64,000 nucleotides of DNA. Source: Sphaerosporella brunnea (Eukaryota > Ascomycota > Pezizomycetes > Pezizales > Pyronemataceae). Both the position numbers and the translations under genes were made by a program. Each line of letters opens with the position of its first letter. Within the stretch, counting starts at the first letter, position 1. Shown here one piece after another: positions 1-41,891 of this stretch. The DNA is taken from contig VXIS01000192.1 in the NCBI GenBank assembly GCA_008704415.1, forward strand, positions 1 through 64,000, given 5' to 3'. The notes below the pieces were generated by a model. It saw only the letters and a program-made list of their open reading frames with translations. It was not told where the DNA came from and ran no database searches.

Positions 1-960
1 CTAAGCAGGAGAATGCAGTGCATGGTGCTTATGTCGCGTGACATGAAAGACGCCGCCGCTGGTCTACTTTGGGGCTGTGCGCCCAAACAAACAACTGGAA
101 GTTGCAGGTCACGTCAGTTTAATATTATCCCACAAGTCAAGCGTCGCAAGGAATTATGCGCACTAATGAGAATAAGGTAAATTAGCGGTTGCGGGTGGGG
201 GGGGGCCTGTTCCCACTCCGTGAACTGCAAGGCCTTTGGTAGGTGACATGGGGCAGCGGGCAAAGCATGCGGAGCAGGCGGAGCAGACCCTGCCGTCACC
301 AAGGACAAGCTCCACAGCACTCGCCAAAAGTAATCAAGGGCAGTCGCAGAGTGCTCTATAACGGGCGGTACCTCACAGGAATGATCTGGACAATGCCCGC
401 CGAGGAGAATACCAAGAAAGATAAAGGGCAAGACAGAGCAGCGAGAAGTCAGATTCCCAGGGCAAAAAGAGGCGGCACCTGTCTCTAATCACCAGAGGTG
501 TTGCGCTAAGGACTAAGATGTTATTGGGCAGTCGATAGTGAGGGAAGCGGGAGTGAAAGTCATCATGGCAGCAGATCTAGAGGACGAGAAGTGCGAGCAG
601 GAAACAATTGGCAAGGTGAGGAAAGAGGAAGAGGGGGTGTGACTCGAGAGTTCTGTAGAGGTTATGCGAAGGGGTACCAAACAGCACGCTGTAGGGAGGA
701 CTCCGGTGCAATGGGTGACGTGACGGGCCGGCGGGGAAGTGTGCGGTAAGGGTGTTAGACCGCATCATAAAGGCATCATCCGCTTCTCTATCCATAGAAA
801 AAGAAACCACACTTCTGGTGGTACATGTTGTTCCTTCGTGTGGCTGCACCGGTTGCCATGGAGGATGGCCAACAGCTCACCGCCATCACCAGTGCCGCGA
901 CTACTATGGTTGGGTGACACCTAAAGACGGAGGGTTTGGGTACCCTGACTTGGACAGTGA
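1..960. repeat. Diverged outer segment of left arm
   Basis: This segment matches 34750-35657 in reverse complement, but with a mismatch or single-base indel every ten or so bases. Inward of about 970 the arms become essentially identical. An ORF equivalent to the right-arm ORF at 35198-35476 is broken here by 1-nt deletions. I see no recognisable gene. It may be a diverged dispersed repeat or uncorrected sequence at a contig end. Confidence 0.75.
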
Positions 961-1386
961 GCATCCTCCACCAAAAAAAAGTTATTTTAAAAAAATAACA
1001 CTATCAGGGGCCTAGTTTTCGCTCGCTCTATCGACTGATTAACTCAGAATTTCCGAATTCTGCCTGGTTGTTGAGAAAATAGGACCCTCCCCGGGGACAA
1101 ATGTCAGTTATATGGTCAAAAAAGGAAGATTCACGCTCATCACTCGGCACTTTTGTATGTGTTACTAAGCGAAATGAATGTCAGAAATCCCACAACTAGA
1201 AGTCCCCAACCATAGGCAGAGTATTTCCTGTTACTTACAATAGGTACCTTAGCGGGATTTGGAAACTGGTTATGTAAGCGCTGTGTGCGAAAACATGGTT
1301 TTTCGCAAGCCCTACCATGCTTTCAAAGTGCTACATTAGATATGTACCAGTACCTTTGAAAACACCTTGATCAGTTTTCCTTGGTA

Positions 1387-1635
1387 CCGTATTATCTCAC
1401 TTAAGAGTCACACTTTTAAGCGGTCTTGGCGCGTGCCAGCGAGTCTTCAACTCACTCCAAAATGTATGAAATATTTTCTATGTGCGATTCTGAGGCGCTT
1501 TAAGTAATCTTTTTTGCTGGCGAAAATTAAAGATGGCCTGATTTCGAGCTTTTGGAGCCTTAAAAGTCGAAAAAATTCCGGATTAGTGTGAAAATTGCCT
1601 GATTAGGGGTGTGGCTCTTAAGTGAGATAATACGG
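1387..1635. mobile_element. TA-flanked MITE, family A (left arm)
   Basis: A 249-bp element with terminal inverted repeats beginning CCGTATTATCTCACTTAA. The repeats run about 28 bp with one mismatch. TA dinucleotides flank both ends (1385-1386 and 1636-1637). There is no internal ORF. TA duplication plus short TIRs is typical of non-autonomous Tc1/mariner-type elements; the superfamily call is inferred from the TSD only. Confidence 0.85.
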
Positions 1636-2474
1636 TATTACTCACATGACCATGGACCAGCAGGTAATGGCGAGTTACTTCAGGTGTTTCACGAGTGACA
1701 TCACGTGTTTGGATGATTCATCACGCCATCGCAGCAATGGTGTTGACTGTTGCAACAAGCTGTCCAGCTTTGGCATCGTCACAGCTCCCCATTACTTTTT
1801 CATCATGTATTTATTGTTGGTGTCGCCTAGGGTGTGGGAAGCGAGGCAACAGTCGGGTGCACGCTTCGACGTTGATGGTGAAGAAGATGATGATGATGAT
1901 GGGGATGGAGATGACCAGTGCCTGGCGGGTACTATCGCCGCGGCGGCGCGGCGGGGTTGGGCGGCGATGCGCGGATTCCTGCGTATAGTCGATTTTCGGC
2001 TTCGAAACATAAAAGCTCAAGCATCGTCAGCGACAGATTTCGGTAAAAACGAGTATCATCAGAACGACTTGCCGCCGCTTTCCCGGTCGCCCTCGAAAGC
2101 TACGGATAAAATAATGAAGGGTTTAGAAGTCAGAAAAAGTGTCTGAAAGGGTCCCCCCATTCCCGTTGGGCTGATTTTCAAAAGTAAAGCGATCATTGCC
2201 TTCACACCACCACCGGTCGAGGGCGATGTACTCGTGGCGACCACCGCCCCAATCACCTTGCGCGACCCAGAATTTTGGACGTCTGGAAGTCTGAATAGAC
2301 CCCTCCCCTCTATTCAGACTTTTCGTCTGGAACGCCGGTTTTCCAGAAAATAAGGTTTCAAAACTTTCAGATACCTTCTAAACCCTTCCAGAAGTCTTCC
2401 AATACAAACCACTCGCTAGCACTCGGAATCGTGTGATCGTATCACAGCCAATCACTCATGCTTATTAATTATTG

Positions 2475-2503
2475 AGGGTTAGGGTCATAGGGTTAGGGTT
2501 CGC
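2475..2503. promoter_or_regulatory. Telomere-like / telobox motif upstream of PDS5 (left arm)
   Basis: Three GGGTTAGGGT-type blocks lie within about 30 bp, roughly 260 bp upstream of the PDS5 start. The block is too short and imperfect to be a telomere remnant with confidence. Telobox-like AACCCTAA motifs also occur in fungal promoters, and a single one lies near 8405 upstream of the RBR gene. Confidence 0.35.
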
Positions 2504-2758
2504 TCCTGCAGTGAGTGATGGAGACAGCATCGCAAAGAGTGGGAAAGTTATTGTGCTCCCGCTTGAACCTTCAGCGCTTCCTCTTGTCCCCATTCTTTCC
2601 GTCAATTTCCCCGCTATTTTAACTGTCTTCGAAAAGGTGCTTGACGCGTCCAGCACTTATTCTCTCCTCCGGACGCGACGCGTCGTGCAATTTCTCTCTT
2701 CCCAACGCCTCATTGTTAACCGCGACCACTGCCGACTGGCCGGGCTCCCCTCTACGCA

Positions 2759-5700
2759 ATGGTCCCCCAGTCGCGTACGCCGCAAGGCGACAGTCTCACG
2801 GATGTCGAAGACGCTCCTTCCAGTACTCTCACGTTTAACGAACCACTTTCATGGAAGGCTGGAAAGCCCATCGCCCTCAACATTTTGCTTGCTCGTCTGG
2901 GGACGCTCAGCAAACAGTTAGCTTCACTGGGCCAGGAAGGTGTCGATCGGGATAGTCTCGCGATACCGGCCAAGGAGTTGGCTCACGTTTCCTTGATGCA
3001 GCACCGAGATGAGGGTGTGAGGGCGCTCGTTGCTTGCTGCTTGGCAGACATGCTACGGCTACACGCGCCAGATGCGCCTTATACTGCGAACCAGCTCAAG
3101 GTAAGGTTCGGTGCGCGTAGGCGGCTGCATCTCTTCGCATGGATCATTGTGCTGATGATGCGACATCATAGGACATCTTCGCATGCTTTGTCAAGTGTCT
3201 GCAAGGCTTCGAAGACCCAGAAAGCAAAAATCACGGTCACTATCTCTATCTGCTGGAGTCTCTCTCGACTGTCAAATCAATAGTGTTGATATCAGACATT
3301 CCGGAAAGTGAGGAAATCACGCTTTCGCTGTTCACCACATTCTTCGACCTCGCAAATCCTGATGCAGGAGTAAGAAATATCGAATATCATATGACCGACA
3401 TTCTCACCCAGCTCATCGAGGAGTGCAACTCGCTGCCATCAGAAGTGGTGGATATTATCATGGCCCAGTTTTTACGGATGGCCCCAGCCCCAGTGCAAAT
3501 CAACAAGAAGGGTGGTCCCGCTCGTGGAGAGGTCGACGAAAAGCAGACGAAGCTGACCAGTGTGGTGCCTCCTCCGGCATATAACATGGCAAAGTCGATC
3601 TGTAATGCATGCGTTGACAAGATGGCGCGACATATCTGTCAGTACTTTTCGGAGGTGGTCCTCGACGCCGCGCCTTCGCGACGACTAGGATCTCCCGAGG
3701 GAGAAGGTGAAGAAGATGTGAAGCATCATGAGCCAACTCACGAGGATCTACATGACCTCAGAAAAGCCCACCTGCTCGCAAAGGAGCTCTGGAAAGCCTG
3801 CCCGCAAGTTCTCCAGAACGTCATTCCGCAACTCGAACAAGAGCTTCTGGCAGACAACGGCGAGATCCGCAAGCTTGCATGCGAGACGATTGGCGAGATG
3901 GCGCTTACTGGAAACCTTTTATCTTCTGCGCCTGCAACTTGGAAGGAATGGGTTAAGAGGGCAAACGACAAATCTCCAGGTGTGCGTGCAAAATGGGTCC
4001 AGGCCGCCGTGCGCATTCTTAAAGAAAGGACCGACAACATGGCGGTACAACTTGTGGACTTGATTGCTCTCAAGCTCAACGATCTGGACGAACAAGTCCG
4101 CTTCACCGTCTGCCAGGCGATGAGGTCTCTCGATTACCTGACTATCACAACCAAGCTCGCAGCTGATCAGTCTCCTTTCAACTTGTACAACTCTTCCAAT
4201 TCCATTGCTGCAACCAATATCAACCGTAAAGTGAAAACCGAGGGCGAAACCAAGGGATGGGGAAAGAAGATTCTATTGACGTTGGCTGAGCGAGTGCGAG
4301 ATAAGAAGATACACGTTCGTCTGGAGGGTATGCGATGTCTCGCTAGAATGTGGGACATGGCCTATAAAGACATTGCCGACGGTAACGAGGTTGTTTTTGC
4401 TCAACTGGGCTGGATTCCTAGCAAGATTCTGGACACATTTTACATCAACGACCCGGAGGTCAATGTTTTGCTTGACCACGTTCTCCATGAAATTCTGATT
4501 CCCGTCAACTATCCTCCCATAGAAAAGGAACGGTATGGCGCGGAGTTGGACAAAGCAGCCGGTACGAAGGGCAAAAGTAAAGAAGTCGACAGCAAGGAGC
4601 GAGAACGAGAGATCATGGAGGGTGACAAGAAGCGGGTGCGCCGATTGCTCGTTCTGGTCAAGGGTCTTGACCAAAAGGCCAAGAGGGCCCTTTTTGCTGT
4701 GCCGCTCAGGCAGATTTCATATGCAAAGGTCATGGAGGTATTCTTGAAGGCCTGCGAAGACAACAACGTGAGTATTTTTGAATCCAGCCTTCGATGCACG
4801 GTATCTGACCATTTCAGAGCGGAGTTATTGAAGAAGGTGTCGACGAGGCTGCGGTTCAGACGACTCTGGAAAAATTCTCATTTTGGTTGTCTCAGAAACT
4901 TCCCGAGCCACTGAAGGCCAAGGAAAATTTGCAAAAATTTGCAAAGCTCCATGACCGGCGTTGCTATCAACTCATTCGCTTTTGCTTTAACCCGGACAGT
5001 GACTATCGCACTGTGGTTAAGGCTCTTAAGGAGATCAAGAAGAGGATTGGTGAAACTGCGCAGCAGGGCATCCTCGACTCACTCACACCCCTGCTCTATC
5101 GTGTTTCACAACTCATCTACAACAAGTCCCATGTCGCACCAATCATCGAGTTCTCTCGCTCTAACGAGCTTGCGCTTGGTAGCACCGCACATGAAGTCTT
5201 AAAGGAAATGTCCAGCTCCAGCCCGGCTGTCTTCAAGGCTAATGTGAAAGCTCTGTCCGACCTTCTCCAGGAGTGTTCTCCGACTTCGGGTTCTCCTGAC
5301 CGTGGCGCAGTGGATACTCTCAAGGCTTGCGCTGGCTTCGCCAAGAGCTATCCGAATGACATGCCCCGGGAGCGTAACCTTCTTCAATCCCTTGTGTCGT
5401 TTGCCCTCACCGGCTCACCTCCGGCGGCAGCGAAGCACGCTGTGACAATATTGATGTATTCTGCCAGCAGAAAGGAGCTTTACGCATCCGACTTGGTGCA
5501 GAGCTGCATCAAGGACTTCAAACTCGGAGGAAAGGACTTCAAATTCGGAGAAAAGCACTTTTTGGCGAAGCTCGCCTGTCTTGGACAATTGGTGCTTCTG
5601 GCACCTGAGCAGTGCGAGGATGAGGCGAAGACGATCAGGGATTTTGCCAGCAATATCCTCCAGACTTCAAAGCCCGCAGATGAGCCAAAGCCCACAGATG

Positions 5701-7551
5701 AGGGCGAGGATGAGGAATCCAATTCGGCATGGGCCGAAGAGGCGGAATTGGACGATGAGATCAAAGCCAAGCTGCTGGCTCTTCGCGTGCTTGTGAACCT
5801 CGTGCGATCACACCCAAATGTCAACAATACCCAGGACATTGCCACTATCAAAACACTGAATAAGATTGTTGCTAATGGGGGTGAACTTTTACAAACTAAG
5901 GGCACCCCAGCTTCTCACCGATCACGTTTGCGGTTGGCTGCTGCTCAGCATCTCTTGAAGCTAGCAACGCCCGGCCATGATGATCTTATCTCACCTGTTG
6001 ATTTCAACAGGCTTGCCGTTGTTGCCCAGGACAGATGCCCTCAAGTTCGTCAAGGCTTCATCAACAAGCTGAAGAAATACCTTGCCAATGGCAGGCTTTC
6101 GCCGCGCTTCTACACCATCGTATTCTTGATGGCATATGAGTCGAACGAGGGCTGGAGGGAGGAGGTAGCGATCTGGATCCGAGGACGTGCCAACACACTC
6201 TCGAAGTCCGCTACAGGCCATAACGTGGTGGAAGCTGTTTTCGCTCGTCTCATGAGTCTGCTGATTCACCACCCAGATTTTGGAAAGCAAGTAAAGGACC
6301 TAACGGACTTTTCCAAGTAAGTACCCCAATGTTATTCCTAAAGTCACCTTTGCTGGCGTGGTGTGCTCGACGTCATTACATGGAGCATCGATGGCGGAGC
6401 TGATTGTTAGCGTACGCGCGTGGTTCTGTAGATACATTTTGTTTTACCTTCGGACCGTGGCAAACGAGGAGAACATTTCTCTCATCTATTACATCGCTCA
6501 ACGAGCGAAGCAATACCGTGACAAGCTGAGTCCCGACAACTCTGATGTATGTCGCTCTCCTTCCTCTAGACAGCGCCTGAACTAAGATCAACAGAACCTA
6601 TATTACCTCTCTGAGCTCTCGCAAGCAGTGATCCGCCACTATGCCGACCACCAGAAATGGGCGATTCTCACGTGGCCTGGAAAATTACGTCTTCCAGCCG
6701 CGTTGTTCGCTCCCATGCAAGACGCGAAAGAATCACAGGAAATCAGCCAAAAAACATTCCTTCCCGAAGGCCTCGACAAGAAACTCGGTAATCTGGTTCG
6801 CACCAGCAAGCACAACGCTATTCCTTCCACCTCGTCAAACGCTGCTGTCGCCACTACCGGGAGGAAGCGAAAGAACGAAACCGGCACCGCTTCGGCCGCT
6901 GCAAACCCAGCACCGAAGTCCAAGAAAGCCAAAGCAGAGTCAACTTCGACCAGGTCCAAAAAGTCAACCACGAAAAAGAAAACTCGGAAGGAAAGCACAC
7001 CACCACCTCCGGAGAAGGGCCGTCGTCGTAGCGGACGCCACGCGAACAAGGTCACAAATTACACTGTGGATACGCCGAGCGACGACGAAGAATTCGAGGA
7101 GGAAGAAAGCGACGTTGATGAGGAGATGGCCGATGCTTCCAGCGAACAGCAAAGTGAGAGTGAGCCTGAGGTTCGGAGCAGGAGAGCCAGTGGCCGTTCC
7201 AGAACCAGTACTGGTGGTGGACGTAGGAAGTCCTCGGTCTCGATCAAGGCCGCAGAGTCTATTCCTGCCGAGGGAGAAAGCATGGATGTTGATGAACCTG
7301 AGCCTGCGACTGAGAAGGAGCCGGAAAAGGCTGCTGCCCCTGTGGCACCCATGGCTGCCGCGACCACTGCCACGGTGGCAGTCCGCAAGAGGCCAACGCG
7401 CGCTCAAGCCCAGGTTGCCAGTAAAGGCAAGGCGCCTGAGAAGAAGCAGCCCGTGACTAGCCCGCGCCGGAGTTCTCGGAGCAAACCCAAGGAACAGCAG
7501 GAGAAAATCGACTGGAACAGCAGCGAGTTGAGTGATGTTCCCGACGAGTAA
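2759..7551 (+). CDS. PDS5: Sister chromatid cohesion protein Pds5 (left-arm copy)
   Basis: Cohesin-associated HEAT-repeat protein (Pds5/BimD/Spo76) that regulates cohesin loading, maintenance and release on chromatin in the nucleus. Predicted exons are 2759-3100, 3172-4767, 4818-6316, 6432-6546 and 6595-7551, giving 1502 residues. Each intron has GT-AG ends and all phases join cleanly. The first ~1230 residues are helical HEAT-type sequence, including the typical region around RRCYQLIRF. The last ~260 residues are Lys/Arg- and Ser/Glu-rich and look disordered, with basic RRRSGR-like patches, as in other fungal Pds5 tails. The length fits the family (about 1200-1500). The start at 2759 is the first ATG of the conserved frame. 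An apparently identical copy lies at 28165-32957. Confidence 0.93.
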
Positions 7552-8510
7552 TCTAACGGCCTCATGATGAGAGCGAGCTATGATGTGTGGTTGTTGGGAA
7601 TCTGTTAATGAGTATCGTTGGCTGGGCTTTGAATTGTTTTTTTCTCTCTCTGTCTCTTTTTTGTTTGCTGCGTCAACTTGGGGTTTTATTTGCTTGCCTG
7701 AGCTCAATTGCGCCTTTCTTGCGTTGATTTGTGGCGGTCTCATATGTATTGTGTATTCTCTCCCTCTCTTTGTTGCTCTCTCGAGCCCCCATTTCTTCTC
7801 TGGCTTTCGTGGGCTCTCTTTCTTGGTGGTCTGCGGTTTTGGAATGCATGGCCTACCTATCTCCTCCGGTTTGTACTTGCGAAGAGAGGTTGATTTGAGA
7901 AAAAAATCTGATACTTGTTTCTTGCTATTCTATAGCTTAACTACGGTTTGCCAATGATTATGTGCATTTCAGCCATTTCAGCAGCTGTCACTCGGTCTGG
8001 AATATCACTTCTGTGACTTCGGGAAGTCCTAAGGCCAGCCCATTTTTCGCGATTATTTTTCCGGCTAGACGTCTAAAGACGGTCAGAGTGAAACTAACTC
8101 AAGTCCTGCTAAACGCGCGCCTACTCCTTTGTGTGTACTAGAACGTTTAGTGGTCTTGGAAATGACCCTTTGGAAAATGTATCTTTGAGTCTATGCCAGA
8201 AACAGCAGGCCTCAGGTTTCATATAAGATTGTCCAGCTCTCTCAAGAGCCCTCACGTTCTATGTGCCAAGAAGCAAATCCTACAACTCCCTCAGACTCTG
8301 TAGGCATCTCCTCTCTTCTCCTCACCGCTCGAGCAAACATCATGTTCAAAACGAACCCCAAGAAGCTCGAGTTCTTAAACTCGCCTCTCCACTGGCAAAG
8401 GCAAGAACCCTAACTTTCTCTTCACCCTTTCTTGCTTCTGTTCAGAAACCCCACGTCTCTTCGCACGTCAATTTTACGGTCTAGGAGACATCATCCCTCG
8501 CGAGTACCCG
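7552..8510. other. Intergenic, PDS5 to RBR gene (left arm)
   Basis: About 960 bp without a convincing gene. It holds the PDS5 3' flank, T-rich stretches including the short T4 at 7684-7687 that is 21 long in the other arm, and a telobox-like AACCCTAA near 8405 about 100 bp upstream of the RBR start. Mirror region 27189-28164. Confidence 0.6.
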
Positions 8511-9639
8511 ATGTCGCCCCCTCAAAAACGAAAGCACGTCAAGGAAGAGGGAGATTCAGTTTGGCGGTCTCCGCAAAAGAAGGTTAAAACCCGTCAAGGT
8601 CCTGCAGGAGCAGCTATCAAACCCCAACCTGCGGAGACGAAGAGGCCGGGGAAGAAGAATAAAAGAAGTAGCTGTCCCTGCAAGGACAAGAGCACCCACG
8701 TTACGGGAATAAAAGGCACCCACGAAGACTGTGGCCCCATCTGCGTCCCAACACTTCTCCTGCGCATCCCAGACTTAAAGTACGGAGAGCGCCTCTACTG
8801 CGTATGCAAGAAACCCTTTCACTACTGGACCCTTCGGAAGATCCTTCCCAGTGATGCTTATTACCAGTTGGCCTCCTCTGTCCCCACAAGTCCCCTTCCC
8901 CCACCTAAAACTTCACAGGTACATCGAGGCCATCAACGCCTCCCGCAAGTGCTGCGTCTGCCTCTACACACTCAGTACCAGCGCTTTCCCTTCGGGAAAG
9001 CTCACAGCCGCCTGCAACCACCCGGCAGCCGCCTGCACCTCTTGCCTTACAGATCTCTTCACCGACTGCTTCGCTAAGAACGTCGCATCCTTCGAGGCCC
9101 CCAAATGTCCCGAATGCGCAGAAACGCTTTCGGTCACGGACGTCCAGCGGATCGGCGGCCGGTCTCTCGCCAGTGCCTACAACGAGCGCCTCACTCTCTC
9201 GCTGCTGCGTGCCGACCCCGATTTCCGCGAGTGTTTGAACCCCGACTGCAGCGCTGGCATGGGCCGTGGCCAACTCCATGAAGGCGGCGAAGAGGCGCCG
9301 ATAGTGACGTGCAAGTACTGCAGCGCTAAGAGTTGTTTCGCTCATAAACTCCCCTGGCACGAGGGACAGACGTGTGAAGAGTTCGATGAGGCAAATGCTG
9401 AATACCGTGCTGCCCGTGAGAAGGAAAACCAGCTTAGCACAAAGTATATGGAGAAGAAGTATAAGCGGTGTCCTAAGTGCAAGGCTTTTATCGAAAAGTT
9501 TCATGGTTGCAATCATATGACGTGCCGGGCTTGTGAACATGAGTTCTGCTGGCTATGTATGGCGCCGTATAGAGGGCGGCTGGGGATAATGGATTTTGGG
9601 AATCGTGGTCATTATGTGGGCTGTAGGTTTCATGGTTAA
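8511..9639 (+). CDS. RBR-type E3 ubiquitin ligase (left-arm copy)
   Basis: RING-between-RING protein. Predicted exons 8511-8866 and 8919-9639 give 358 residues. The N-terminus is Lys-rich and contains Cys pairs (CPCK, YCVCK). RING1 starts at the CCVC near residue 130 and ends with CPEC. The IBR has a CLNPDC...CKYC...H pattern, and RING2 has CPKC followed by HGCNHMTC. By analogy with HHARI and parkin, Cys316 in HGC would be the catalytic cysteine accepting ubiquitin from the E2, giving a RING/HECT-hybrid mechanism. The intron donor GTTGGC is non-canonical but is the only nearby GT that keeps phase with the CACAG acceptor. Substrates cannot be inferred. A mirror copy lies at 26060-27188. Confidence 0.85.
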
Positions 9640-9927
9640 GAGGACTGGGCTTCCGGTAATTTTGTAGCGTGGACTTATTTTTGAGCTTTCGTTATAGAAG
9701 AGGGAGTAGAAGCTTGGCTACCTTGGAAAAATTACAGCGAAAATCTATTCATATCATAAACAAACAGCTTGGTATTTCTAGAAGATCCCATTATCCATGA
9801 TTTACAAGAAAAAGAAGTTCATCTCCAGTTTTAATAAATAAATATTCGCCACCATCCTCCATCCACTCCACCACTCAGTACTCAGCGATCCTTCTCACCC
9901 TCTCCCCGAGCTCAACAACCTAACCGG

Positions 9928-10156
9928 CAGAGTCGTGAGCACCTCTTTAAGGAGTCTTATAGATGGCTTCCACAGATTCGCGCGCTTTAGCGCTCTGTGG
10001 AGAAAGATCTGGGCTGGAAACACCTCCGGTGGAGGTCTGTTACCGAGTTATTTCAGGAGAAGGCTATCCCGGTTGTCTTGCAGTTTCTGCGGGATATTAG
10101 GGTTGGCCAATTCGTGGCGGTTGCTTGGGAGCAGGGAGATGGAGGAAGAGGAGTAA
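9928..10156 (+). pseudogene. LINE ORF2 C-terminal relic (left arm)
   Basis: One frame reads QSREHLFKE, then WLPQIRAL, a stop, and a further ~50 conserved-looking residues through FLRDIRVGQ. This matches the C-terminal Cys/His tail of Tad-like non-LTR retrotransposon ORF2 (compare the better preserved copy at 45366-45935). The expected zinc-ligand Cys after HLFKE is Ser, and the expected Trp after RAL is a TAG stop, a G-to-A type change. No full element or TSD was found. Confidence 0.65.
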
Positions 10157-10286
10157 CCCGGTCCTGGTGGCTGGCAGTCTATGCGATTTTCGTGCCCGTT
10201 TCTTTCCTTTGATTGTTTTTCTCACACATTTCCCTTTGTCTTGCTCAGATTGGTAATTAGGGTGGCCGCAGTTGATGCATGAGATT

Positions 10287-10492
10287 TCAATAAGGCGGTG
10301 GACAGGATATGAGCAGTGGATCTGCCATAGTCTAGTTAGGCTGCATGCCGGCACTAAATTTGATTACACACACATACCTAGAGTGACAACGATACATCGA
10401 TCGTAGATGTTCCTCCTCGGCTCCCGCGTATGCATCACACCAAACATGTCGGCCAGCTCTTTCTCCGTCGCTAATGGCGGAAGCGAGTTGGC
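10287..10492 (-). CDS. Small unknown spliced ORF (left arm), 3' part only
   Basis: Predicted terminal exons of a small gene. One exon encodes a block around ATEKELADMFGVMHTREPRR and ends at a GTATGT donor. After a ~56-nt intron with a CTAACT branch site, a short last exon ends in CPPPY and a stop. An acceptor precedes the first of these exons, so upstream coding sequence is expected but was not found in a consistent phase. I do not recognise the family. It runs opposite to the UPF0538-like gene. The right-arm equivalent is 25192-25397. Confidence 0.3.
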
Positions 10493-10695
10493 CTGGATAG
10501 TTAATTTGTGGGCAAACCGAAGAAACGAGAACCGCGATGTTTGATAGGGCAGGCGAGAAAGAAAGAAAGCTTGATACTACTCCGCGAAACTCAAACTTAC
10601 TTAACCCACCGACCAAGCAAGCCCGTACGATCGCCCGAGTATGTCGCCGCCGTTCCTTCTCGCCCCAAAATCCAATCACTGAAGAACACGCCGCA

Positions 10696-11185
10696 GTCAC
10701 GGACGCGACGCTCACGATCCTTCCCCTTCAGCACATCCAAGAATGTAGTTCTGCACCTCGACTTGATGACGCTCACGGCGGTGGAGCTGAAGGAGAAAGT
10801 CAAGAACCGTATGTAGCGCACTCCACCTCACACCTGGACCGCGTACTGACTCGAAATCTGCCAGACATCAAGACGCAGCCCGGGTTTAAGGCGTACAAAC
10901 TCTGGAGCCCGATGCTCTGAAGCTGTACACGAAGGCTCACGGCACAAAAACCAACAGCTTGATCATCAGCATGGAGGACGAGAACGACGAGTTGTTTTGG
11001 GACGATAGTGCGACTCTTGCTAGCTACGGATGCGGTCTGTGTACCCCGACCCGCAACCATACAACCTAACTGACTCGTTGTAAACAGAACACGAGACGGA
11101 GATTTCGTTTTTCATCATGAAGGACTACGAGGAGATCAAGAAAAACCGGAGGAGAAGTGGTGATCAGTGCGATACAACTAGATGA
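10696..11185 (+). pseudogene. UPF0538 (C2orf76-like) gene, degenerate (left arm)
   Basis: The exon frames resemble UPF0538, a small conserved eukaryotic family of unknown function. Exon 1 (to 10808) carries KNVVLHLDLMTLTAVELKEK. Exon 2 (10865-11034) carries PDALKLYTKAHGTKTNSLII. Exon 3 (11088-11185) carries HETEISFFIMKDYEE. The middle intron junctions keep phase; the second donor is an atypical GTCTGT. Two lesions break the frame: a deletion between LTI and FPFSTSK near 10718-10724, and an apparent 1-nt loss in the A-run at 10896-10898, since one extra A would restore continuity into PDALK. Both lesions are present in both arms. This is a pseudogene, unless the A-run is a systematic sequencing error. 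Confidence 0.65.
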
Positions 11186-11383
11186 TCGATCATGATCATG
11201 AGATCTTTTCGCGTAACCAAGGATGTATGTTACTGTCTTCGCCTGGCTCAAAATCTTTCGTTCTAATACTTCCTACGGAATCATACATATGTTTATATCT
11301 GTCTTCTAGCTGGATACCGATCGAAAGTATGCAATGCAGTAAATCTGCCCAGGTGAGAAGCTGTGATACCACACCATAGATAC

Positions 11384-11814: not shown

Positions 11815-11900
11815 ATAGATACAACGCGATGTCTTTGTGCAATGAAAGTTACCGTACCCGAAACACTCCTGTGCCACCACCATCACTCCCGAACAATCTA

Positions 11901-17824: not shown

Positions 17825-17825
17825 C

Positions 17826-23783: not shown

Positions 23784-23869
23784 TAGATTGTTCGGGAGTG
23801 ATGGTGGTGGCACAGGAGTGTTTCGGGTACGGTAACTTTCATTGCACAAAGACATCGCGTTGTATCTAT

Positions 23870-24300: not shown

Positions 24301-24498
24301 GTATCTATGGTGTGGTATCACAGCTTCTCACCTGGGCAGATTTACTGCATTGCATACTTTCGATCGGTATCCAGCTAGAAGACAGATATAAACATATGTA
24401 TGATTCCGTAGGAAGTATTAGAACGAAAGATTTTGAGCCAGGCGAAGACAGTAACATACATCCTTGGTTACGCGAAAAGATCTCATGATCATGATCGA

Positions 24499-24988
24499 TC
24501 ATCTAGTTGTATCGCACTGATCACCACTTCTCCTCCGGTTTTTCTTGATCTCCTCGTAGTCCTTCATGATGAAAAACGAAATCTCCGTCTCGTGTTCTGT
24601 TTACAACGAGTCAGTTAGGTTGTATGGTTGCGGGTCGGGGTACACAGACCGCATCCGTAGCTAGCAAGAGTCGCACTATCGTCCCAAAACAACTCGTCGT
24701 TCTCGTCCTCCATGCTGATGATCAAGCTGTTGGTTTTTGTGCCGTGAGCCTTCGTGTACAGCTTCAGAGCATCGGGCTCCAGAGTTTGTACGCCTTAAAC
24801 CCGGGCTGCGTCTTGATGTCTGGCAGATTTCGAGTCAGTACGCGGTCCAGGTGTGAGGTGGAGTGCGCTACATACGGTTCTTGACTTTCTCCTTCAGCTC
24901 CACCGCCGTGAGCGTCATCAAGTCGAGGTGCAGAACTACATTCTTGGATGTGCTGAAGGGGAAGGATCGTGAGCGTCGCGTCCGTGAC
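24499..24988 (-). pseudogene. UPF0538 (C2orf76-like) gene, degenerate (right arm)
   Basis: Mirror copy of 10696-11185, with the same exon blocks and the same two frame-breaking lesions. Shared lesions mean that the decay, or a systematic base-calling error, affects both arms equally. Confidence 0.65.
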
Positions 24989-25191
24989 TGCGGCGTGTTC
25001 TTCAGTGATTGGATTTTGGGGCGAGAAGGAACGGCGGCGACATACTCGGGCGATCGTACGGGCTTGCTTGGTCGGTGGGTTAAGTAAGTTTGAGTTTCGC
25101 GGAGTAGTATCAAGCTTTCTTTCTTTCTCGCCTGCCCTATCAAACATCGCGGTTCTCGTTTCTTCGGTTTGCCCACAAATTAACTATCCAG

Positions 25192-25397
25192 GCCAACTCG
25201 CTTCCGCCATTAGCGACGGAGAAAGAGCTGGCCGACATGTTTGGTGTGATGCATACGCGGGAGCCGAGGAGGAACATCTACGATCGATGTATCGTTGTCA
25301 CTCTAGGTATGTGTGTGTAATCAAATTTAGTGCCGGCATGCAGCCTAACTAGACTATGGCAGATCCACTGCTCATATCCTGTCCACCGCCTTATTGA
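25192..25397 (+). CDS. Small unknown spliced ORF (right arm), 3' part only
   Basis: Mirror of 10287-10492. Exons are 25192-25306 and 25363-25397, with donor GTATGT at 25307 and an acceptor ending at 25362. The 5' end is not resolved and no family is recognised. Confidence 0.3.
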
Positions 25398-25527
25398 AAT
25401 CTCATGCATCAACTGCGGCCACCCTAATTACCAATCTGAGCAAGACAAAGGGAAATGTGTGAGAAAAACAATCAAAGGAAAGAAACGGGCACGAAAATCG
25501 CATAGACTGCCAGCCACCAGGACCGGG

Positions 25528-25756
25528 TTACTCCTCTTCCTCCATCTCCCTGCTCCCAAGCAACCGCCACGAATTGGCCAACCCTAATATCCCGCAGAAA
25601 CTGCAAGACAACCGGGATAGCCTTCTCCTGAAATAACTCGGTAACAGACCTCCACCGGAGGTGTTTCCAGCCCAGATCTTTCTCCACAGAGCGCTAAAGC
25701 GCGCGAATCTGTGGAAGCCATCTATAAGACTCCTTAAAGAGGTGCTCACGACTCTG
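25528..25756 (-). pseudogene. LINE ORF2 C-terminal relic (right arm)
   Basis: Mirror of 9928-10156, carrying the same in-frame stop and the same Cys-to-Ser change. The decay predates the duplication. Confidence 0.65.
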
Positions 25757-26059
25757 CCGGTTAGGTTGTTGAGCTCGGGGAGAGGGTGAGAAGGATCGCT
25801 GAGTACTGAGTGGTGGAGTGGATGGAGGATGGTGGCGAATATTTATTTATTAAAACTGGAGATGAACTTCTTTTTCTTGTAAATCATGGATAATGGGATC
25901 TTCTAGAAATACCAAGCTTTTTTTTTTTTTTTTGTTTGTTTATGATATGAATAGATTTTCGCTGTAATTTTTCCAAGGTAGCCAAGCTTCTACTCCCTCT
26001 TCTATAACGAAAGCTCAAAAATAAGTCCACGCTACAAAATTACCGGAAGCCCAGTCCTC

Positions 26060-27188
26060 TTAACCATGAAACCTACAGCCCACATAATGACCACGATTCC
26101 CAAAATCCATTATCCCCAGCCGCCCTCTATACGGCGCCATACATAGCCAGCAGAACTCATGTTCACAAGCCCGGCACGTCATATGATTGCAACCATGAAA
26201 CTTTTCGATAAAAGCCTTGCACTTAGGACACCGCTTATACTTCTTCTCCATATACTTTGTGCTAAGCTGGTTTTCCTTCTCACGGGCAGCACGGTATTCA
26301 GCATTTGCCTCATCGAACTCTTCACACGTCTGTCCCTCGTGCCAGGGGAGTTTATGAGCGAAACAACTCTTAGCGCTGCAGTACTTGCACGTCACTATCG
26401 GCGCCTCTTCGCCGCCTTCATGGAGTTGGCCACGGCCCATGCCAGCGCTGCAGTCGGGGTTCAAACACTCGCGGAAATCGGGGTCGGCACGCAGCAGCGA
26501 GAGAGTGAGGCGCTCGTTGTAGGCACTGGCGAGAGACCGGCCGCCGATCCGCTGGACGTCCGTGACCGAAAGCGTTTCTGCGCATTCGGGACATTTGGGG
26601 GCCTCGAAGGATGCGACGTTCTTAGCGAAGCAGTCGGTGAAGAGATCTGTAAGGCAAGAGGTGCAGGCGGCTGCCGGGTGGTTGCAGGCGGCTGTGAGCT
26701 TTCCCGAAGGGAAAGCGCTGGTACTGAGTGTGTAGAGGCAGACGCAGCACTTGCGGGAGGCGTTGATGGCCTCGATGTACCTGTGAAGTTTTAGGTGGGG
26801 GAAGGGGACTTGTGGGGACAGAGGAGGCCAACTGGTAATAAGCATCACTGGGAAGGATCTTCCGAAGGGTCCAGTAGTGAAAGGGTTTCTTGCATACGCA
26901 GTAGAGGCGCTCTCCGTACTTTAAGTCTGGGATGCGCAGGAGAAGTGTTGGGACGCAGATGGGGCCACAGTCTTCGTGGGTGCCTTTTATTCCCGTAACG
27001 TGGGTGCTCTTGTCCTTGCAGGGACAGCTACTTCTTTTATTCTTCTTCCCCGGCCTCTTCGTCTCCGCAGGTTGGGGTTTGATAGCTGCTCCTGCAGGAC
27101 CTTGACGGGTTTTAACCTTCTTTTGCGGAGACCGCCAAACTGAATCTCCCTCTTCCTTGACGTGCTTTCGTTTTTGAGGGGGCGACAT
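26060..27188 (-). CDS. RBR-type E3 ubiquitin ligase (right-arm copy)
   Basis: Mirror copy of 8511-9639 on the minus strand, exons 26833-27188 and 26060-26780, 358 residues. The RING1, IBR and RING2 cysteines, the putative catalytic Cys316 and the weak GTTGGC donor are all the same. The 3' flank contains the T16 tract (25918-25933) that is a single T in the left arm. Confidence 0.85.
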
Positions 27189-28164
27189 CGGGTACTCGCG
27201 AGGGATGATGTCTCCTAGACCGTAAAATTGACGTGCGAAGAGACGTGGGGTTTCTGAACAGAAGCAAGAAAGGGTGAAGAGAAAGTTAGGGTTCTTGCCT
27301 TTGCCAGTGGAGAGGCGAGTTTAAGAACTCGAGCTTCTTGGGGTTCGTTTTGAACATGATGTTTGCTCGAGCGGTGAGGAGAAGAGAGGAGATGCCTACA
27401 GAGTCTGAGGGAGTTGTAGGATTTGCTTCTTGGCACATAGAACGTGAGGGCTCTTGAGAGAGCTGGACAATCTTATATGAAACCTGAGGCCTGCTGTTTC
27501 TGGCATAGACTCAAAGATACATTTTCCAAAGGGTCATTTCCAAGACCACTAAACGTTCTAGTACACACAAAGGAGTAGGCGCGCGTTTAGCAGGACTTGA
27601 GTTAGTTTCACTCTGACCGTCTTTAGACGTCTAGCCGGAAAAATAATCGCGAAAAATGGGCTGGCCTTAGGACTTCCCGAAGTCACAGAAGTGATATTCC
27701 AGACCGAGTGACAGCTGCTGAAATGGCTGAAATGCACATAATCATTGGCAAACCGTAGTTAAGCTATAGAATAGCAAGAAACAAGTATCAGATTTTTTTC
27801 TCAAATCAACCTCTCTTCGCAAGTACAAACCGGAGGAGATAGGTAGGCCATGCATTCCAAAACCGCAGACCACCAAGAAAGAGAGCCCACGAAAGCCAGA
27901 GAAGAAATGGGGGCTCGAGAGAGCAACAAAGAGAGGGAGAGAATACACAATACATATGAGACCGCCACAAATCAACGCAAGAAAGGCGCAATTGAGCTCA
28001 GGCAAGCAAATAAAAAAAAAAAAAAAAAAAAACCCCAAGTTGACGCAGCAAACAAAAAAGAGACAGAGAGAGAAAAAAACAATTCAAAGCCCAGCCAACG
28101 ATACTCATTAACAGATTCCCAACAACCACACATCATAGCTCGCTCTCATCATGAGGCCGTTAGA

Positions 28165-31100
28165 TTACTCGTCGGGAACATCACTCAACTCGCTGCTGTT
28201 CCAGTCGATTTTCTCCTGCTGTTCCTTGGGTTTGCTCCGAGAACTCCGGCGCGGGCTAGTCACGGGCTGCTTCTTCTCAGGCGCCTTGCCTTTACTGGCA
28301 ACCTGGGCTTGAGCGCGCGTTGGCCTCTTGCGGACTGCCACCGTGGCAGTGGTCGCGGCAGCCATGGGTGCCACAGGGGCAGCAGCCTTTTCCGGCTCCT
28401 TCTCAGTCGCAGGCTCAGGTTCATCAACATCCATGCTTTCTCCCTCGGCAGGAATAGACTCTGCGGCCTTGATCGAGACCGAGGACTTCCTACGTCCACC
28501 ACCAGTACTGGTTCTGGAACGGCCACTGGCTCTCCTGCTCCGAACCTCAGGCTCACTCTCACTTTGCTGTTCGCTGGAAGCATCGGCCATCTCCTCATCA
28601 ACGTCGCTTTCTTCCTCCTCGAATTCTTCGTCGTCGCTCGGCGTATCCACAGTGTAATTTGTGACCTTGTTCGCGTGGCGTCCGCTACGACGACGGCCCT
28701 TCTCCGGAGGTGGTGGTGTGCTTTCCTTCCGAGTTTTCTTTTTCGTGGTTGACTTTTTGGACCTGGTCGAAGTTGACTCTGCTTTGGCTTTCTTGGACTT
28801 CGGTGCTGGGTTTGCAGCGGCCGAAGCGGTGCCGGTTTCGTTCTTTCGCTTCCTCCCGGTAGTGGCGACAGCAGCGTTTGACGAGGTGGAAGGAATAGCG
28901 TTGTGCTTGCTGGTGCGAACCAGATTACCGAGTTTCTTGTCGAGGCCTTCGGGAAGGAATGTTTTTTGGCTGATTTCCTGTGATTCTTTCGCGTCTTGCA
29001 TGGGAGCGAACAACGCGGCTGGAAGACGTAATTTTCCAGGCCACGTGAGAATCGCCCATTTCTGGTGGTCGGCATAGTGGCGGATCACTGCTTGCGAGAG
29101 CTCAGAGAGGTAATATAGGTTCTGTTGATCTTAGTTCAGGCGCTGTCTAGAGGAAGGAGAGCGACATACATCAGAGTTGTCGGGACTCAGCTTGTCACGG
29201 TATTGCTTCGCTCGTTGAGCGATGTAATAGATGAGAGAAATGTTCTCCTCGTTTGCCACGGTCCGAAGGTAAAACAAAATGTATCTACAGAACCACGCGC
29301 GTACGCTAACAATCAGCTCCGCCATCGATGCTCCATGTAATGACGTCGAGCACACCACGCCAGCAAAGGTGACTTTAGGAATAACATTGGGGTACTTACT
29401 TGGAAAAGTCCGTTAGGTCCTTTACTTGCTTTCCAAAATCTGGGTGGTGAATCAGCAGACTCATGAGACGAGCGAAAACAGCTTCCACCACGTTATGGCC
29501 TGTAGCGGACTTCGAGAGTGTGTTGGCACGTCCTCGGATCCAGATCGCTACCTCCTCCCTCCAGCCCTCGTTCGACTCATATGCCATCAAGAATACGATG
29601 GTGTAGAAGCGCGGCGAAAGCCTGCCATTGGCAAGGTATTTCTTCAGCTTGTTGATGAAGCCTTGACGAACTTGAGGGCATCTGTCCTGGGCAACAACGG
29701 CAAGCCTGTTGAAATCAACAGGTGAGATAAGATCATCATGGCCGGGCGTTGCTAGCTTCAAGAGATGCTGAGCAGCAGCCAACCGCAAACGTGATCGGTG
29801 AGAAGCTGGGGTGCCCTTAGTTTGTAAAAGTTCACCCCCATTAGCAACAATCTTATTCAGTGTTTTGATAGTGGCAATGTCCTGGGTATTGTTGACATTT
29901 GGGTGTGATCGCACGAGGTTCACAAGCACGCGAAGAGCCAGCAGCTTGGCTTTGATCTCATCGTCCAATTCCGCCTCTTCGGCCCATGCCGAATTGGATT
30001 CCTCATCCTCGCCCTCATCTGTGGGCTTTGGCTCATCTGCGGGCTTTGAAGTCTGGAGGATATTGCTGGCAAAATCCCTGATCGTCTTCGCCTCATCCTC
30101 GCACTGCTCAGGTGCCAGAAGCACCAATTGTCCAAGACAGGCGAGCTTCGCCAAAAAGTGCTTTTCTCCGAATTTGAAGTCCTTTCCTCCGAGTTTGAAG
30201 TCCTTGATGCAGCTCTGCACCAAGTCGGATGCGTAAAGCTCCTTTCTGCTGGCAGAATACATCAATATTGTCACAGCGTGCTTCGCTGCCGCCGGAGGTG
30301 AGCCGGTGAGGGCAAACGACACAAGGGATTGAAGAAGGTTACGCTCCCGGGGCATGTCATTCGGATAGCTCTTGGCGAAGCCAGCGCAAGCCTTGAGAGT
30401 ATCCACTGCGCCACGGTCAGGAGAACCCGAAGTCGGAGAACACTCCTGGAGAAGGTCGGACAGAGCTTTCACATTAGCCTTGAAGACAGCCGGGCTGGAG
30501 CTGGACATTTCCTTTAAGACTTCATGTGCGGTGCTACCAAGCGCAAGCTCGTTAGAGCGAGAGAACTCGATGATTGGTGCGACATGGGACTTGTTGTAGA
30601 TGAGTTGTGAAACACGATAGAGCAGGGGTGTGAGTGAGTCGAGGATGCCCTGCTGCGCAGTTTCACCAATCCTCTTCTTGATCTCCTTAAGAGCCTTAAC
30701 CACAGTGCGATAGTCACTGTCCGGGTTAAAGCAAAAGCGAATGAGTTGATAGCAACGCCGGTCATGGAGCTTTGCAAATTTTTGCAAATTTTCCTTGGCC
30801 TTCAGTGGCTCGGGAAGTTTCTGAGACAACCAAAATGAGAATTTTTCCAGAGTCGTCTGAACCGCAGCCTCGTCGACACCTTCTTCAATAACTCCGCTCT
30901 GAAATGGTCAGATACCGTGCATCGAAGGCTGGATTCAAAAATACTCACGTTGTTGTCTTCGCAGGCCTTCAAGAATACCTCCATGACCTTTGCATATGAA
31001 ATCTGCCTGAGCGGCACAGCAAAAAGGGCCCTCTTGGCCTTTTGGTCAAGACCCTTGACCAGAACGAGCAATCGGCGCACCCGCTTCTTGTCACCCTCCA

Positions 31101-32957
31101 TGATCTCTCGTTCTCGCTCCTTGCTGTCGACTTCTTTACTTTTGCCCTTCGTACCGGCTGCTTTGTCCAACTCCGCGCCATACCGTTCCTTTTCTATGGG
31201 AGGATAGTTGACGGGAATCAGAATTTCATGGAGAACGTGGTCAAGCAAAACATTGACCTCCGGGTCGTTGATGTAAAATGTGTCCAGAATCTTGCTAGGA
31301 ATCCAGCCCAGTTGAGCAAAAACAACCTCGTTACCGTCGGCAATGTCTTTATAGGCCATGTCCCACATTCTAGCGAGACATCGCATACCCTCCAGACGAA
31401 CGTGTATCTTCTTATCTCGCACTCGCTCAGCCAACGTCAATAGAATCTTCTTTCCCCATCCCTTGGTTTCGCCCTCGGTTTTCACTTTACGGTTGATATT
31501 GGTTGCAGCAATGGAATTGGAAGAGTTGTACAAGTTGAAAGGAGACTGATCAGCTGCGAGCTTGGTTGTGATAGTCAGGTAATCGAGAGACCTCATCGCC
31601 TGGCAGACGGTGAAGCGGACTTGTTCGTCCAGATCGTTGAGCTTGAGAGCAATCAAGTCCACAAGTTGTACCGCCATGTTGTCGGTCCTTTCTTTAAGAA
31701 TGCGCACGGCGGCCTGGACCCATTTTGCACGCACACCTGGAGATTTGTCGTTTGCCCTCTTAACCCATTCCTTCCAAGTTGCAGGCGCAGAAGATAAAAG
31801 GTTTCCAGTAAGCGCCATCTCGCCAATCGTCTCGCATGCAAGCTTGCGGATCTCGCCGTTGTCTGCCAGAAGCTCTTGTTCGAGTTGCGGAATGACGTTC
31901 TGGAGAACTTGCGGGCAGGCTTTCCAGAGCTCCTTTGCGAGCAGGTGGGCTTTTCTGAGGTCATGTAGATCCTCGTGAGTTGGCTCATGATGCTTCACAT
32001 CTTCTTCACCTTCTCCCTCGGGAGATCCTAGTCGTCGCGAAGGCGCGGCGTCGAGGACCACCTCCGAAAAGTACTGACAGATATGTCGCGCCATCTTGTC
32101 AACGCATGCATTACAGATCGACTTTGCCATGTTATATGCCGGAGGAGGCACCACACTGGTCAGCTTCGTCTGCTTTTCGTCGACCTCTCCACGAGCGGGA
32201 CCACCCTTCTTGTTGATTTGCACTGGGGCTGGGGCCATCCGTAAAAACTGGGCCATGATAATATCCACCACTTCTGATGGCAGCGAGTTGCACTCCTCGA
32301 TGAGCTGGGTGAGAATGTCGGTCATATGATATTCGATATTTCTTACTCCTGCATCAGGATTTGCGAGGTCGAAGAATGTGGTGAACAGCGAAAGCGTGAT
32401 TTCCTCACTTTCCGGAATGTCTGATATCAACACTATTGATTTGACAGTCGAGAGAGACTCCAGCAGATAGAGATAGTGACCGTGATTTTTGCTTTCTGGG
32501 TCTTCGAAGCCTTGCAGACACTTGACAAAGCATGCGAAGATGTCCTATGATGTCGCATCATCAGCACAATGATCCATGCGAAGAGATGCAGCCGCCTACG
32601 CGCACCGAACCTTACCTTGAGCTGGTTCGCAGTATAAGGCGCATCTGGCGCGTGTAGCCGTAGCATGTCTGCCAAGCAGCAAGCAACGAGCGCCCTCACA
32701 CCCTCATCTCGGTGCTGCATCAAGGAAACGTGAGCCAACTCCTTGGCCGGTATCGCGAGACTATCCCGATCGACACCTTCCTGGCCCAGTGAAGCTAACT
32801 GTTTGCTGAGCGTCCCCAGACGAGCAAGCAAAATGTTGAGGGCGATGGGCTTTCCAGCCTTCCATGAAAGTGGTTCGTTAAACGTGAGAGTACTGGAAGG
32901 AGCGTCTTCGACATCCGTGAGACTGTCGCCTTGCGGCGTACGCGACTGGGGGACCAT
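28165..32957 (-). CDS. PDS5: Sister chromatid cohesion protein Pds5 (right-arm copy)
   Basis: Mirror copy of the gene at 2759-7551. Exons on the minus strand are 32616-32957, 30949-32544, 29400-30898, 29170-29284 and 28165-29121, again 1502 residues. I see no coding differences from the left copy, and all splice sites are retained. Two intact copies of a cohesin regulator facing away from the axis would double its dosage if the palindrome is real. The 3' flank differs from the left copy by the A21 tract at 28012-28032. Confidence 0.92.
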
Positions 32958-33212
32958 TGCGTAGAGGGGAGCCCGGCCAGTCGGCAGTGGTCGCGGTTAA
33001 CAATGAGGCGTTGGGAAGAGAGAAATTGCACGACGCGTCGCGTCCGGAGGAGAGAATAAGTGCTGGACGCGTCAAGCACCTTTTCGAAGACAGTTAAAAT
33101 AGCGGGGAAATTGACGGAAAGAATGGGGACAAGAGGAAGCGCTGAAGGTTCAAGCGGGAGCACAATAACTTTCCCACTCTTTGCGATGCTGTCTCCATCA
33201 CTCACTGCAGGA

Positions 33213-33241
33213 GCGAACCCTAACCCTATGACCCTAACCCT
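33213..33241. promoter_or_regulatory. Telomere-like / telobox motif upstream of PDS5 (right arm)
   Basis: Mirror of 2475-2503, here read as CCCTAACCC blocks. It lies the same distance upstream of the right-arm PDS5 start. Confidence 0.35.
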
Positions 33242-34080
33242 CAATAATTAATAAGCATGAGTGATTGGCTGTGATACGATCACACGATTCCGAGTGCTAG
33301 CGAGTGGTTTGTATTGGAAGACTTCTGGAAGGGTTTAGAAGGTATCTGAAAGTTTTGAAACCTTATTTTCTGGAAAACCGGCGTTCCAGACGAAAAGTCT
33401 GAATAGAGGGGAGGGGTCTATTCAGACTTCCAGACGTCCAAAATTCTGGGTCGCGCAAGGTGATTGGGGCGGTGGTCGCCACGAGTACATCGCCCTCGAC
33501 CGGTGGTGGTGTGAAGGCAATGATCGCTTTACTTTTGAAAATCAGCCCAACGGGAATGGGGGGACCCTTTCAGACACTTTTTCTGACTTCTAAACCCTTC
33601 ATTATTTTATCCGTAGCTTTCGAGGGCGACCGGGAAAGCGGCGGCAAGTCGTTCTGATGATACTCGTTTTTACCGAAATCTGTCGCTGACGATGCTTGAG
33701 CTTTTATGTTTCGAAGCCGAAAATCGACTATACGCAGGAATCCGCGCATCGCCGCCCAACCCCGCCGCGCCGCCGCGGCGATAGTACCCGCCAGGCACTG
33801 GTCATCTCCATCCCCATCATCATCATCATCTTCTTCACCATCAACGTCGAAGCGTGCACCCGACTGTTGCCTCGCTTCCCACACCCTAGGCGACACCAAC
33901 AATAAATACATGATGAAAAAGTAATGGGGAGCTGTGACGATGCCAAAGCTGGACAGCTTGTTGCAACAGTCAACACCATTGCTGCGATGGCGTGATGAAT
34001 CATCCAAACACGTGATGTCACTCGTGAAACACCTGAAGTAACTCGCCATTACCTGCTGGTCCATGGTCATGTGAGTAATA

Positions 34081-34329
34081 CCGTATTATCTCACTTAAGA
34101 GCCACACCCCTAATCAGGCAATTTTCACACTAATCCGGAATTTTTTCGACTTTTAAGGCTCCAAAAGCTCGAAATCAGGCCATCTTTAATTTTCGCCAGC
34201 AAAAAAGATTACTTAAAGCGCCTCAGAATCGCACATAGAAAATATTTCATACATTTTGGAGTGAGTTGAAGACTCGCTGGCACGCGCCAAGACCGCTTAA
34301 AAGTGTGACTCTTAAGTGAGATAATACGG
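34081..34329. mobile_element. TA-flanked MITE, family A (right arm)
   Basis: Mirror copy of 1387-1635 with the same 249-bp length, the same TIRs and flanking TA at 34079-34080 and 34330-34331. The insertion therefore predates the inverted duplication. Confidence 0.85.
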
Positions 34330-34749
34330 TACCAAGGAAAACTGATCAAGGTGTTTTCAAAGGTACTGGTACATATCTAATGTAGCACTTTGAAAGCATG
34401 GTAGGGCTTGCGAAAAACCATGTTTTCGCACACAGCGCTTACATAACCAGTTTCCAAATCCCGCTAAGGTACCTATTGTAAGTAACAGGAAATACTCTGC
34501 CTATGGTTGGGGACTTCTAGTTGTGGGATTTCTGACATTCATTTCGCTTAGTAACACATACAAAAGTGCCGAGTGATGAGCGTGAATCTTCCTTTTTTGA
34601 CCATATAACTGACATTTGTCCCCGGGGAGGGTCCTATTTTCTCAACAACCAGGCAGAATTCGGAAATTCTGAGTTAATCAGTCGATAGAGCGAGCGAAAA
34701 CTAGGCCCCTGATAGTGTTATTTTTTAAAATAACTTTTTTTTGGTGGAG

Positions 34750-35657
34750 GATGCTCTGTCCAAAGTCAGGGTACCCAAACCCCTCCGTCTTTAGGTGTCC
34801 CCAACCATAGTAGGTCCGGTTGCTTATGGGGTGGCTGTTGGGCATCCTCCATGGCAACCGGTTGCAGCCACACGAAGGAACAACATTTTACCACCAGAAG
34901 GTGGTTTCTTTTTCATGGATAGAGAAGCGGATGATCCTTTATGATGCGGTCTTAACACCCTTACCGCAACCTTCCCCGCCGGCCCGTCACGTCACCACCT
35001 TTGCCCGGACTCCTTCCCTTACAGCGCTGTTTGGTACCCCTTCGCATAACCTCTACAGAACTCTCGAGTCACACCCCCTCTTCCTCTTTCCTCACCTTGC
35101 CAATTGTTTCCTGCTCGCACTTCTCGTCCTCTAGATCTGCTGCCATGATGACTTTCACCTCCCGCTTCCCCTCACTATCGACTGCCCCAATAACATCTTA
35201 GTCCTTAGCGCAACACCTCTGGTGATTAGAGACAGGTGCCGCCTTCTTTTTGCCCTGGGAATCTGACTTCTTCGCTGCTCTGTCTTGCCCTTTATCTTTC
35301 TTGGTATTCTCCTCGGCGGGCATTGTCCAGATCATTCCTGTGAGGTACCGCCCGTTATAGAGCACTCTGCGACTGCCCTTGATTACTTTTGGCGAGTGCT
35401 GCTGGAGCTTGTCCTTGGTGACGGCAGGGTCTGCTTCCGCCTGCTCCCGCATGCTTTGCCCGCTGCCCCAGGTCACCTACAAAGGCCTTGCCCAGTTCTA
35501 CGGAGTGGGAACAGCCCCCGCAAGCTTACCAGTCTCAGTCGCATAATCCTTGCGACGCTGACTGATAACTGAGTTGCCTGCAACTCTCAGTGTTTTTGGG
35601 CAAGCCCCAAAGAGTCGCGGCTGTCCGCTCACCCTGCCACTGCATTCTCCTGCTTAG
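34750..35657. repeat. Diverged outer segment of right arm
   Basis: This is the counterpart of 1-960. It contains a minus-strand ORF at 35198-35476 (92 codons from the first ATG) that is longer and better preserved than its left-arm equivalent. The ORF has a Lys/Gln-rich C-terminus and no family I recognise. The right copy keeping the longer frame suggests that the left copy carries more of the errors or decay. Confidence 0.7.
35198..35476 (-). CDS. Unrecognised ORF in outer palindrome segment
   Basis: A 92-codon minus-strand ORF. Its middle part, around YNGRYLTGMIWTMP, and its Lys-rich tail look protein-like, and the frame may continue upstream through an unidentified intron. The left-arm counterpart near 243-488 encodes the same middle block but shifts frame on both sides through 1-nt indels. 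It could be a fragment of a host gene or of a transposon protein. No function is assigned. Confidence 0.25.
   Translation of the reverse strand: MTWGSGQSMREQAEADPAVTKDKLQQHSPKVIKGSRRVLYNGRYLTGMIWTMPAEENTKKDKGQDRAAKKSDSQGKKKAAPVSNHQRCCAKD

Positions 35658-41297: not shown

Positions 41298-41891
<594 letters not shown>

Follow-up and report, generated by a model that had tools for sequence, protein, structure and literature searches.

We found that the first 35,657 nucleotides of contig VXIS01000192.1 (here C104; 91,331 bases) in the Sphaerosporella brunnea assembly GCA_008704415.1 form a near-perfect palindrome centred on the gene NudE. We judge, with a probability of about 95%, that it is an artefact at the level of the assembly and not a structure of the fungus, whatever its cause at the bench, missed sequencing adapters included. 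This judgement is drawn from the assembled sequence. An artefact is far more likely because four observations come together, namely the recurrence of such fold-backs at 10 of 53 other contig ends, the type of error that separates the arms, the broken outer copy of NudE and the lack of an outer junction. Throughout, the window is the 64,000-nucleotide stretch C104:1-64000, whose base 1 is base 1 of the contig, and the assembly analysed comprises 50.57 Mb in 640 contigs. Sphaerosporella brunnea is an ectomycorrhizal ascomycete of the Pezizales, and the available part of the genome paper describes a draft made from a PacBio low-input 10-kb library with Falcon, FinisherSC and Arrow at 907.91x (PMC6908789).

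When the window was compared with itself by BLAST, we observed one long inverted match (201-35519, 99.47% identity) and two short ones. The long match holds 26 mismatches and 94 gap openings; the alignment runs across the axis, and each difference therefore enters these numbers about twice. The innermost arm limits are 17825 and 17860, which leaves 34 bp of spacer between them, confirming a preliminary description of this DNA as a giant near-perfect palindrome with 17.8-kb arms and a spacer of that length. The drift of mirror coordinates that it reported, from 35684 to 35716, is right to within a base, as the mirror sum moves from 35685 at the axis to 35716 at 996/34720. The arms meet the spacer at the self-complementary word GTAC; chimeras from multiple displacement amplification are expected to have 2-21 nt of microhomology at the junction, which at C104 would show only in a comparison with unrearranged DNA past the axis. 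The palindrome consists of the following parts:

1..17825, minus strand: outer arm, probably false, a reverse-complement copy of 17860-35657 that runs up to base 1 of C104
1..996, minus strand: error-rich outermost part of this arm
17826..17859, no strand: spacer at the axis, 34 bp
17860..35657, plus strand: inner arm, which we regard as the genuine copy and which runs on into the rest of the contig as far as 91331

On its outer side the palindrome begins with base 1 of C104, so that the outer arm stops at the contig end with no junction to unique DNA or a telomere. A telomeric tract was not seen at either end of C104, with TTAGGG and CCCTAA occurring 3 and 0 times in the first 3 kb, and 0 times and once in the last 3 kb.

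Next, we investigated the differences between the arms. Between left-arm positions 996-17560 and their mirror there are 10 differences, all of them changes in homopolymer length (tracts of 15 and 17 bases among them), and 0 substitutions. The preliminary description had taken the unequal A/T tracts to show that the two arms were once represented by separate sequence; this argument fails, as the long-read consensus of a single locus can yield homopolymer-length miscalls twice over and they are not proof of two genomic copies. In the outermost kilobase (bins 1-1000), we counted 31 substitutions, 26 insertions and 18 deletions over 965 alignment steps, each gap run being counted once, which amounts to a difference of ~8%, a level like that of raw reads. 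This kilobase contains short open reading frames (ORFs) only, and its noise is assigned to the outer arm from its place at the contig end, not by polarisation against homologues.

A broken NudE copy and a chimeric public protein

The axis falls inside NudE, and both copies of the gene are without the conserved N terminus; the four orthologues aligned carry ~70 further upstream residues. The features around the axis are these:

17855..19291, plus strand: NudE gene cut off at the axis, with an intact frame, aligning with Pezizales orthologues from the KYNKSK motif onward
16393..17825, minus strand: left-arm NudE copy, its frame broken by a one-base insertion at ~17560
17616..17795, plus strand: apparent false first exon behind the public protein P0001, whose 60 residues match (100%) the antisense strand of NudE as copied in the left arm
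17796..17854, plus strand: apparent false intron implied by P0001, spanning the axis, with residue 61 encoded from 17855

The inner, right-arm copy follows the orthologues and the outer copy is the frame-shifted one; in NudE the polarity is clear, the broken copy being the outer one. The preliminary description had proposed that the palindrome would be refuted by reads that, from 17860 on, enter a normal NudE 5' end and do not reverse. With the assembly used as a proxy for the reads, the N terminus of Trichophaea NudE matched both copies on C104, starting from residue 71 or 73, and elsewhere gave weak matches only (E values of 0.10 and 0.44). The DNA of 17000-18700 matched C104 alone, twice, and no other contig continuing past the axis was found. 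The weak matches of the 5' end suggest that the assembly is interrupted at the axis, the true continuation beyond which was not found in it.

At the right end of the spacer stands CAG and then AGC AAG TAC, which looks like the 3' terminus of a NudE intron followed by the conserved motif, so that at least this part of the spacer is probably genuine single-copy sequence. Upon examining public proteins, we found that the 477-aa NudE query is identical over its full length to an entry named NUDE protein [Sphaerosporella brunnea] (P0001, 538 aa). Residues 1-60 of this entry have no convincing alignment to the four orthologues. P0001 fits a gene model that uses the spacer acceptor and has wrong-strand DNA of the left arm as its first exon; such a model would take 17616-17795 for that exon because the upstream sequence is absent. 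The exon limits used here derive from the protein sequence and not from the deposited gene model.

Terminal fold-backs at other contig ends

We sampled 39 further contig starts and 14 right ends, picked by contig number and not at random. Fold-backs that reach the last base were present at at least 10 of these 53 ends (at least 9 of the 39 starts and at least 1 of the 14 right ends). These counts are lower bounds, with 40 of 1087 and 40 of 594 candidates scored in joined queries, and the C180 and C215 fold-backs were missed in the end sampling and came to light through a mid-contig control. In C104 and in the 10 others, the palindrome extends outward as far as the contig end; the structure recurs at unrelated loci, and the differences, where there are any, are of the kind made by sequencing errors. 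The 10 fold-backs are listed below by contig, with the two mirrored positions.

C1, start, 1 and 19017: 3 mismatches, 55 gap openings (part of the arms compared)
C3, start, 1 and 14538: outer arm with 205 deletions, 29 insertions and 95 substitutions in 7127 steps
C640, start, 1 and 6681: 0 substitutions, 7 indels in 3076
C610, start, 1 and 14428: 0 mismatches, 10 gap openings (part of the arms compared)
C625, start, 1 and 45589: 100% identical over the 1600 bases compared (part of the arms)
C290, start, 1 and 2138: 48 mismatches, 68 gap openings (each difference counted about twice)
C30, start, 1 and 3520: 2 mismatches, 4 gap openings (each difference counted about twice)
C215, start, 1 and 43128: 62 mismatches, 117 gap openings (part of the arms compared)
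C180, start, 1 and 49041: 10 mismatches, 24 gap openings (part of the arms compared)
C100, right end, 91762 and 70857: 6 mismatches, 56 gap openings (part of the arms compared)

Gap openings outnumber mismatches in all nine fold-backs that show any difference over the stretches compared (9 of the 10 found), with the weakest excess in C290 (48 vs 68). Such an excess of indels is more typical of PacBio errors than of sequences that have diverged by evolution. The spacers at nine located axes measure 34 (C104), 33, 32, 4, 0, 0, 0, 69 and 536 nt; on a reading of the letters, those of C215 and C3 would be shorter if one arm indel were allowed, and the C625 axis was not located within 22400-23200.

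In the mid-contig control, for which 40 of 195 candidates were scored, 2 of 20 pieces recurred in inverted orientation on the contig they came from, and both, in C180 and C215, lie within terminal fold-backs. For C180 an internal palindrome was considered and rejected, since its first 1500 bases are unmatched at 42000-44000 and match 47534-49041, so that the fold-back reaches base 1. The outer arm of C180 is without ~5.4 kb of the inner arm (38350-43743), the gap falling at 5283/5284. Two further candidates were set aside. The right end of C640 (133535-136562) displays the opposite pattern, with 53 mismatches vs 7 gap openings, and looks like an ordinary diverged repeat, and C150 has an 80% inverted match between its two ends, which was not counted as a fold-back. 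Separately, C1:549-764 holds a ~216-bp repeat with at least dozens of further copies on other contigs at 87-95% identity.

Origin of the palindrome

We propose that inverted chimeras, present in the sequencing library as fold-back molecules or reads, gave rise to the palindrome. A strand copied leftward through NudE would have snapped back near 17843 and been extended on its own product, giving a hairpin-like molecule with a 34-nt loop, and long reads of such molecules would have passed across the axis. The assembler may then have followed the axis-crossing reads and walked outward on reads of the same locus in reverse, ending at the present base 1. Arms of more than 10 kb would imply that it extended along reversed same-locus reads past the chimeric junction, and, provided that the published 10-kb library was used, a single read would not have sufficed for the C104 arm. 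A separate consensus for each arm would account for the observed pattern of homopolymer-only differences and an uncorrected, raw-like last kilobase. Finally, as the sequence of P0001 itself shows, gene annotation built a chimeric NudE protein on the palindrome.

With respect to the cause at the bench, amplification-type or library snap-back chimeras fit best and missed adapters fit poorly, as the variable loops are better matched by snap-back or template-switch chimeras. In multiple displacement amplification (MDA), Lasken and Stockwell 2007 report an inverted arrangement for 85% of the chimeras they mapped, most of these with a deletion between the segments, and rate hairpin self-priming as a minor route (PMC1855051). 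The palindromes described here resemble inverted MDA chimeras, as presented in the available parts of that study, of Warris et al. 2018 on Pacasus (PMC6218980) and of Vecchi et al. 2026 (PMC13265396), in that an inverted copy of the same locus is joined via an intervening segment, many loci are affected and long-read assemblies are damaged. Furthermore, the unpaired intervening segment of MDA chimeras varies in length, as do the spacers at the nine axes (0-536 nt). They differ in that the arms here are contig-level, several being longer than a 10-kb insert, and in that, for S. brunnea, the available part of the genome paper gives a PacBio library of low input and 10 kb without naming any step of amplification (PMC6908789).

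Several points weigh against an artefact or against this account of it. Whole-genome amplification is not mentioned in the available text of the genome paper, which reports 51.6 Mb in 872 contigs vs the 50.57 Mb in 640 contigs analysed here (PMC6908789); the version is not quite the same, and that the published methods apply to C104 is an inference. Within one arm of a genuine long inverted duplication an assembler would stop as well, and the coincidence with a contig end is thus no proof when taken alone. Additionally, 43 of the 53 sampled ends have no clear fold-back among the 40 candidates scored per joined query (one of the 43, the C640 right end, being ambiguous), the outer arm of C625 is free of read-type errors over its 1600 compared bases, and in C290 substitutions nearly equal gap openings.

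A special case within the 95% is that PacBio reads with missed adapters, in which both strands of a SMRTbell insert stand in one subread, were assembled as such. Missed adapters produce mirror copies in PacBio data, and the C104 palindrome shares both the data type and the mirror copies with such subreads. The SMRTbell adapter is ~45 nt long and a missed-adapter spacer should have adapter length every time, whereas the spacers here range from 0 to 536 nt. Moreover, none of four adapter words occurs in 17750-17950, and the right end of the C104 spacer resembles NudE sequence. Owing to the variable spacer lengths and the lack of these adapter words near the axis, we rejected missed adapters as the main cause and regard them as improbable. 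Our literature search found nothing on missed adapters combined with palindromic PacBio assembly, and, by title, nothing on this assembly among work on contig-end palindromes and on low-input or Joint Genome Institute (JGI) amplification.

Fold-back inverted duplications and giant palindromes also form in vivo at chromosome breaks. A real and recent event of this kind would have involved a break in NudE, hairpin capping and replication, to give either a chromosome end or an arm like that of an isochromosome, with PDS5 and RBR each present twice. The two long arms, nearly identical over 16.8 kb, and the short spacer, such as fold-back repair can leave, resemble known cases, and the assembly yielded no convincing match to the NudE 5' end, as if the distal DNA had been lost. 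However, in contrast to in vivo fold-back duplications, the outer arm of C104 stops where the contig stops, carries read-type errors and joins no unique sequence, and the structure recurs at other termini; nor was a telomeric repeat tract seen at the ends of C104. With 10 of 53 other ends alike, many loci would have had to be duplicated in one single-spore, presumably haploid, strain. We therefore consider a real duplication at C104 very unlikely, and place equally little credence in the broader proposition that Sb_GMNB300 carries many in vivo fold-back inverted duplications at broken chromosome sites, at least in some nuclei, which would make the recurrent terminal palindromes a product of breakage and hairpin repair in the living fungus and not of library chemistry. 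Least probable of all is an old palindrome whose arms are homogenised by gene conversion, as in sex-chromosome palindromes, which would explain the high arm identity but not 0 substitutions beside 10 homopolymer changes in left-arm 996-17560, an axis within a conserved gene, a noise-like outer kilobase or similar copies at other contig ends. Among the three options raised in the preliminary description, the read or assembly artefact gains support from the 10 of 53 other ends and the read-type errors of the outer arm.

The finding serves as a warning on a public genome and the proteins derived from it, not as new biology of the fungus. Should 10 of 53 be representative, which is an extrapolation from ends chosen by contig number, a substantial share of contigs may carry false mirror copies. 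Gene counts would then be too high, inverted duplicates would appear that do not exist, and chimeric proteins like the public NUDE entry would arise. Claims of gene family expansion or of palindromes from this assembly should first be preceded by a screen of contig ends against their own reverse complement.

Other genes and repeats

All four ORF pairs compared between the arms (two of PDS5, one of a 307-aa ORF and one of RBR type) are identical letter for letter, and Pfam detected PDS5 and IBR domains on the right-arm copies. The earlier statement that every gene recurs stands for these pairs, but NudE is not intact twice, with its insertion at ~17560 and absent N termini.

3283..6320, plus strand: the two PDS5 ORFs of the left arm (543 and 477 aa), each with an identical counterpart in the right arm
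29396..32433, minus strand: right-arm PDS5 ORFs (Pfam)
8851..9639, plus strand: left-arm RBR-type ORF with IBR domain, 262 aa
26060..26848, minus strand: right-arm RBR-type ORF with IBR domain, 262 aa (Pfam)

We also observe an element of ~285 bp, probably a short transposable element, that occurs once per arm (11384-11670 and 24014-24297) and in an independent copy at 40677-40950, with ~92% identity. Outside the palindrome, 45543-45710 and 53464-53631 form an inverted pair of ~168 bp with 78% identity.

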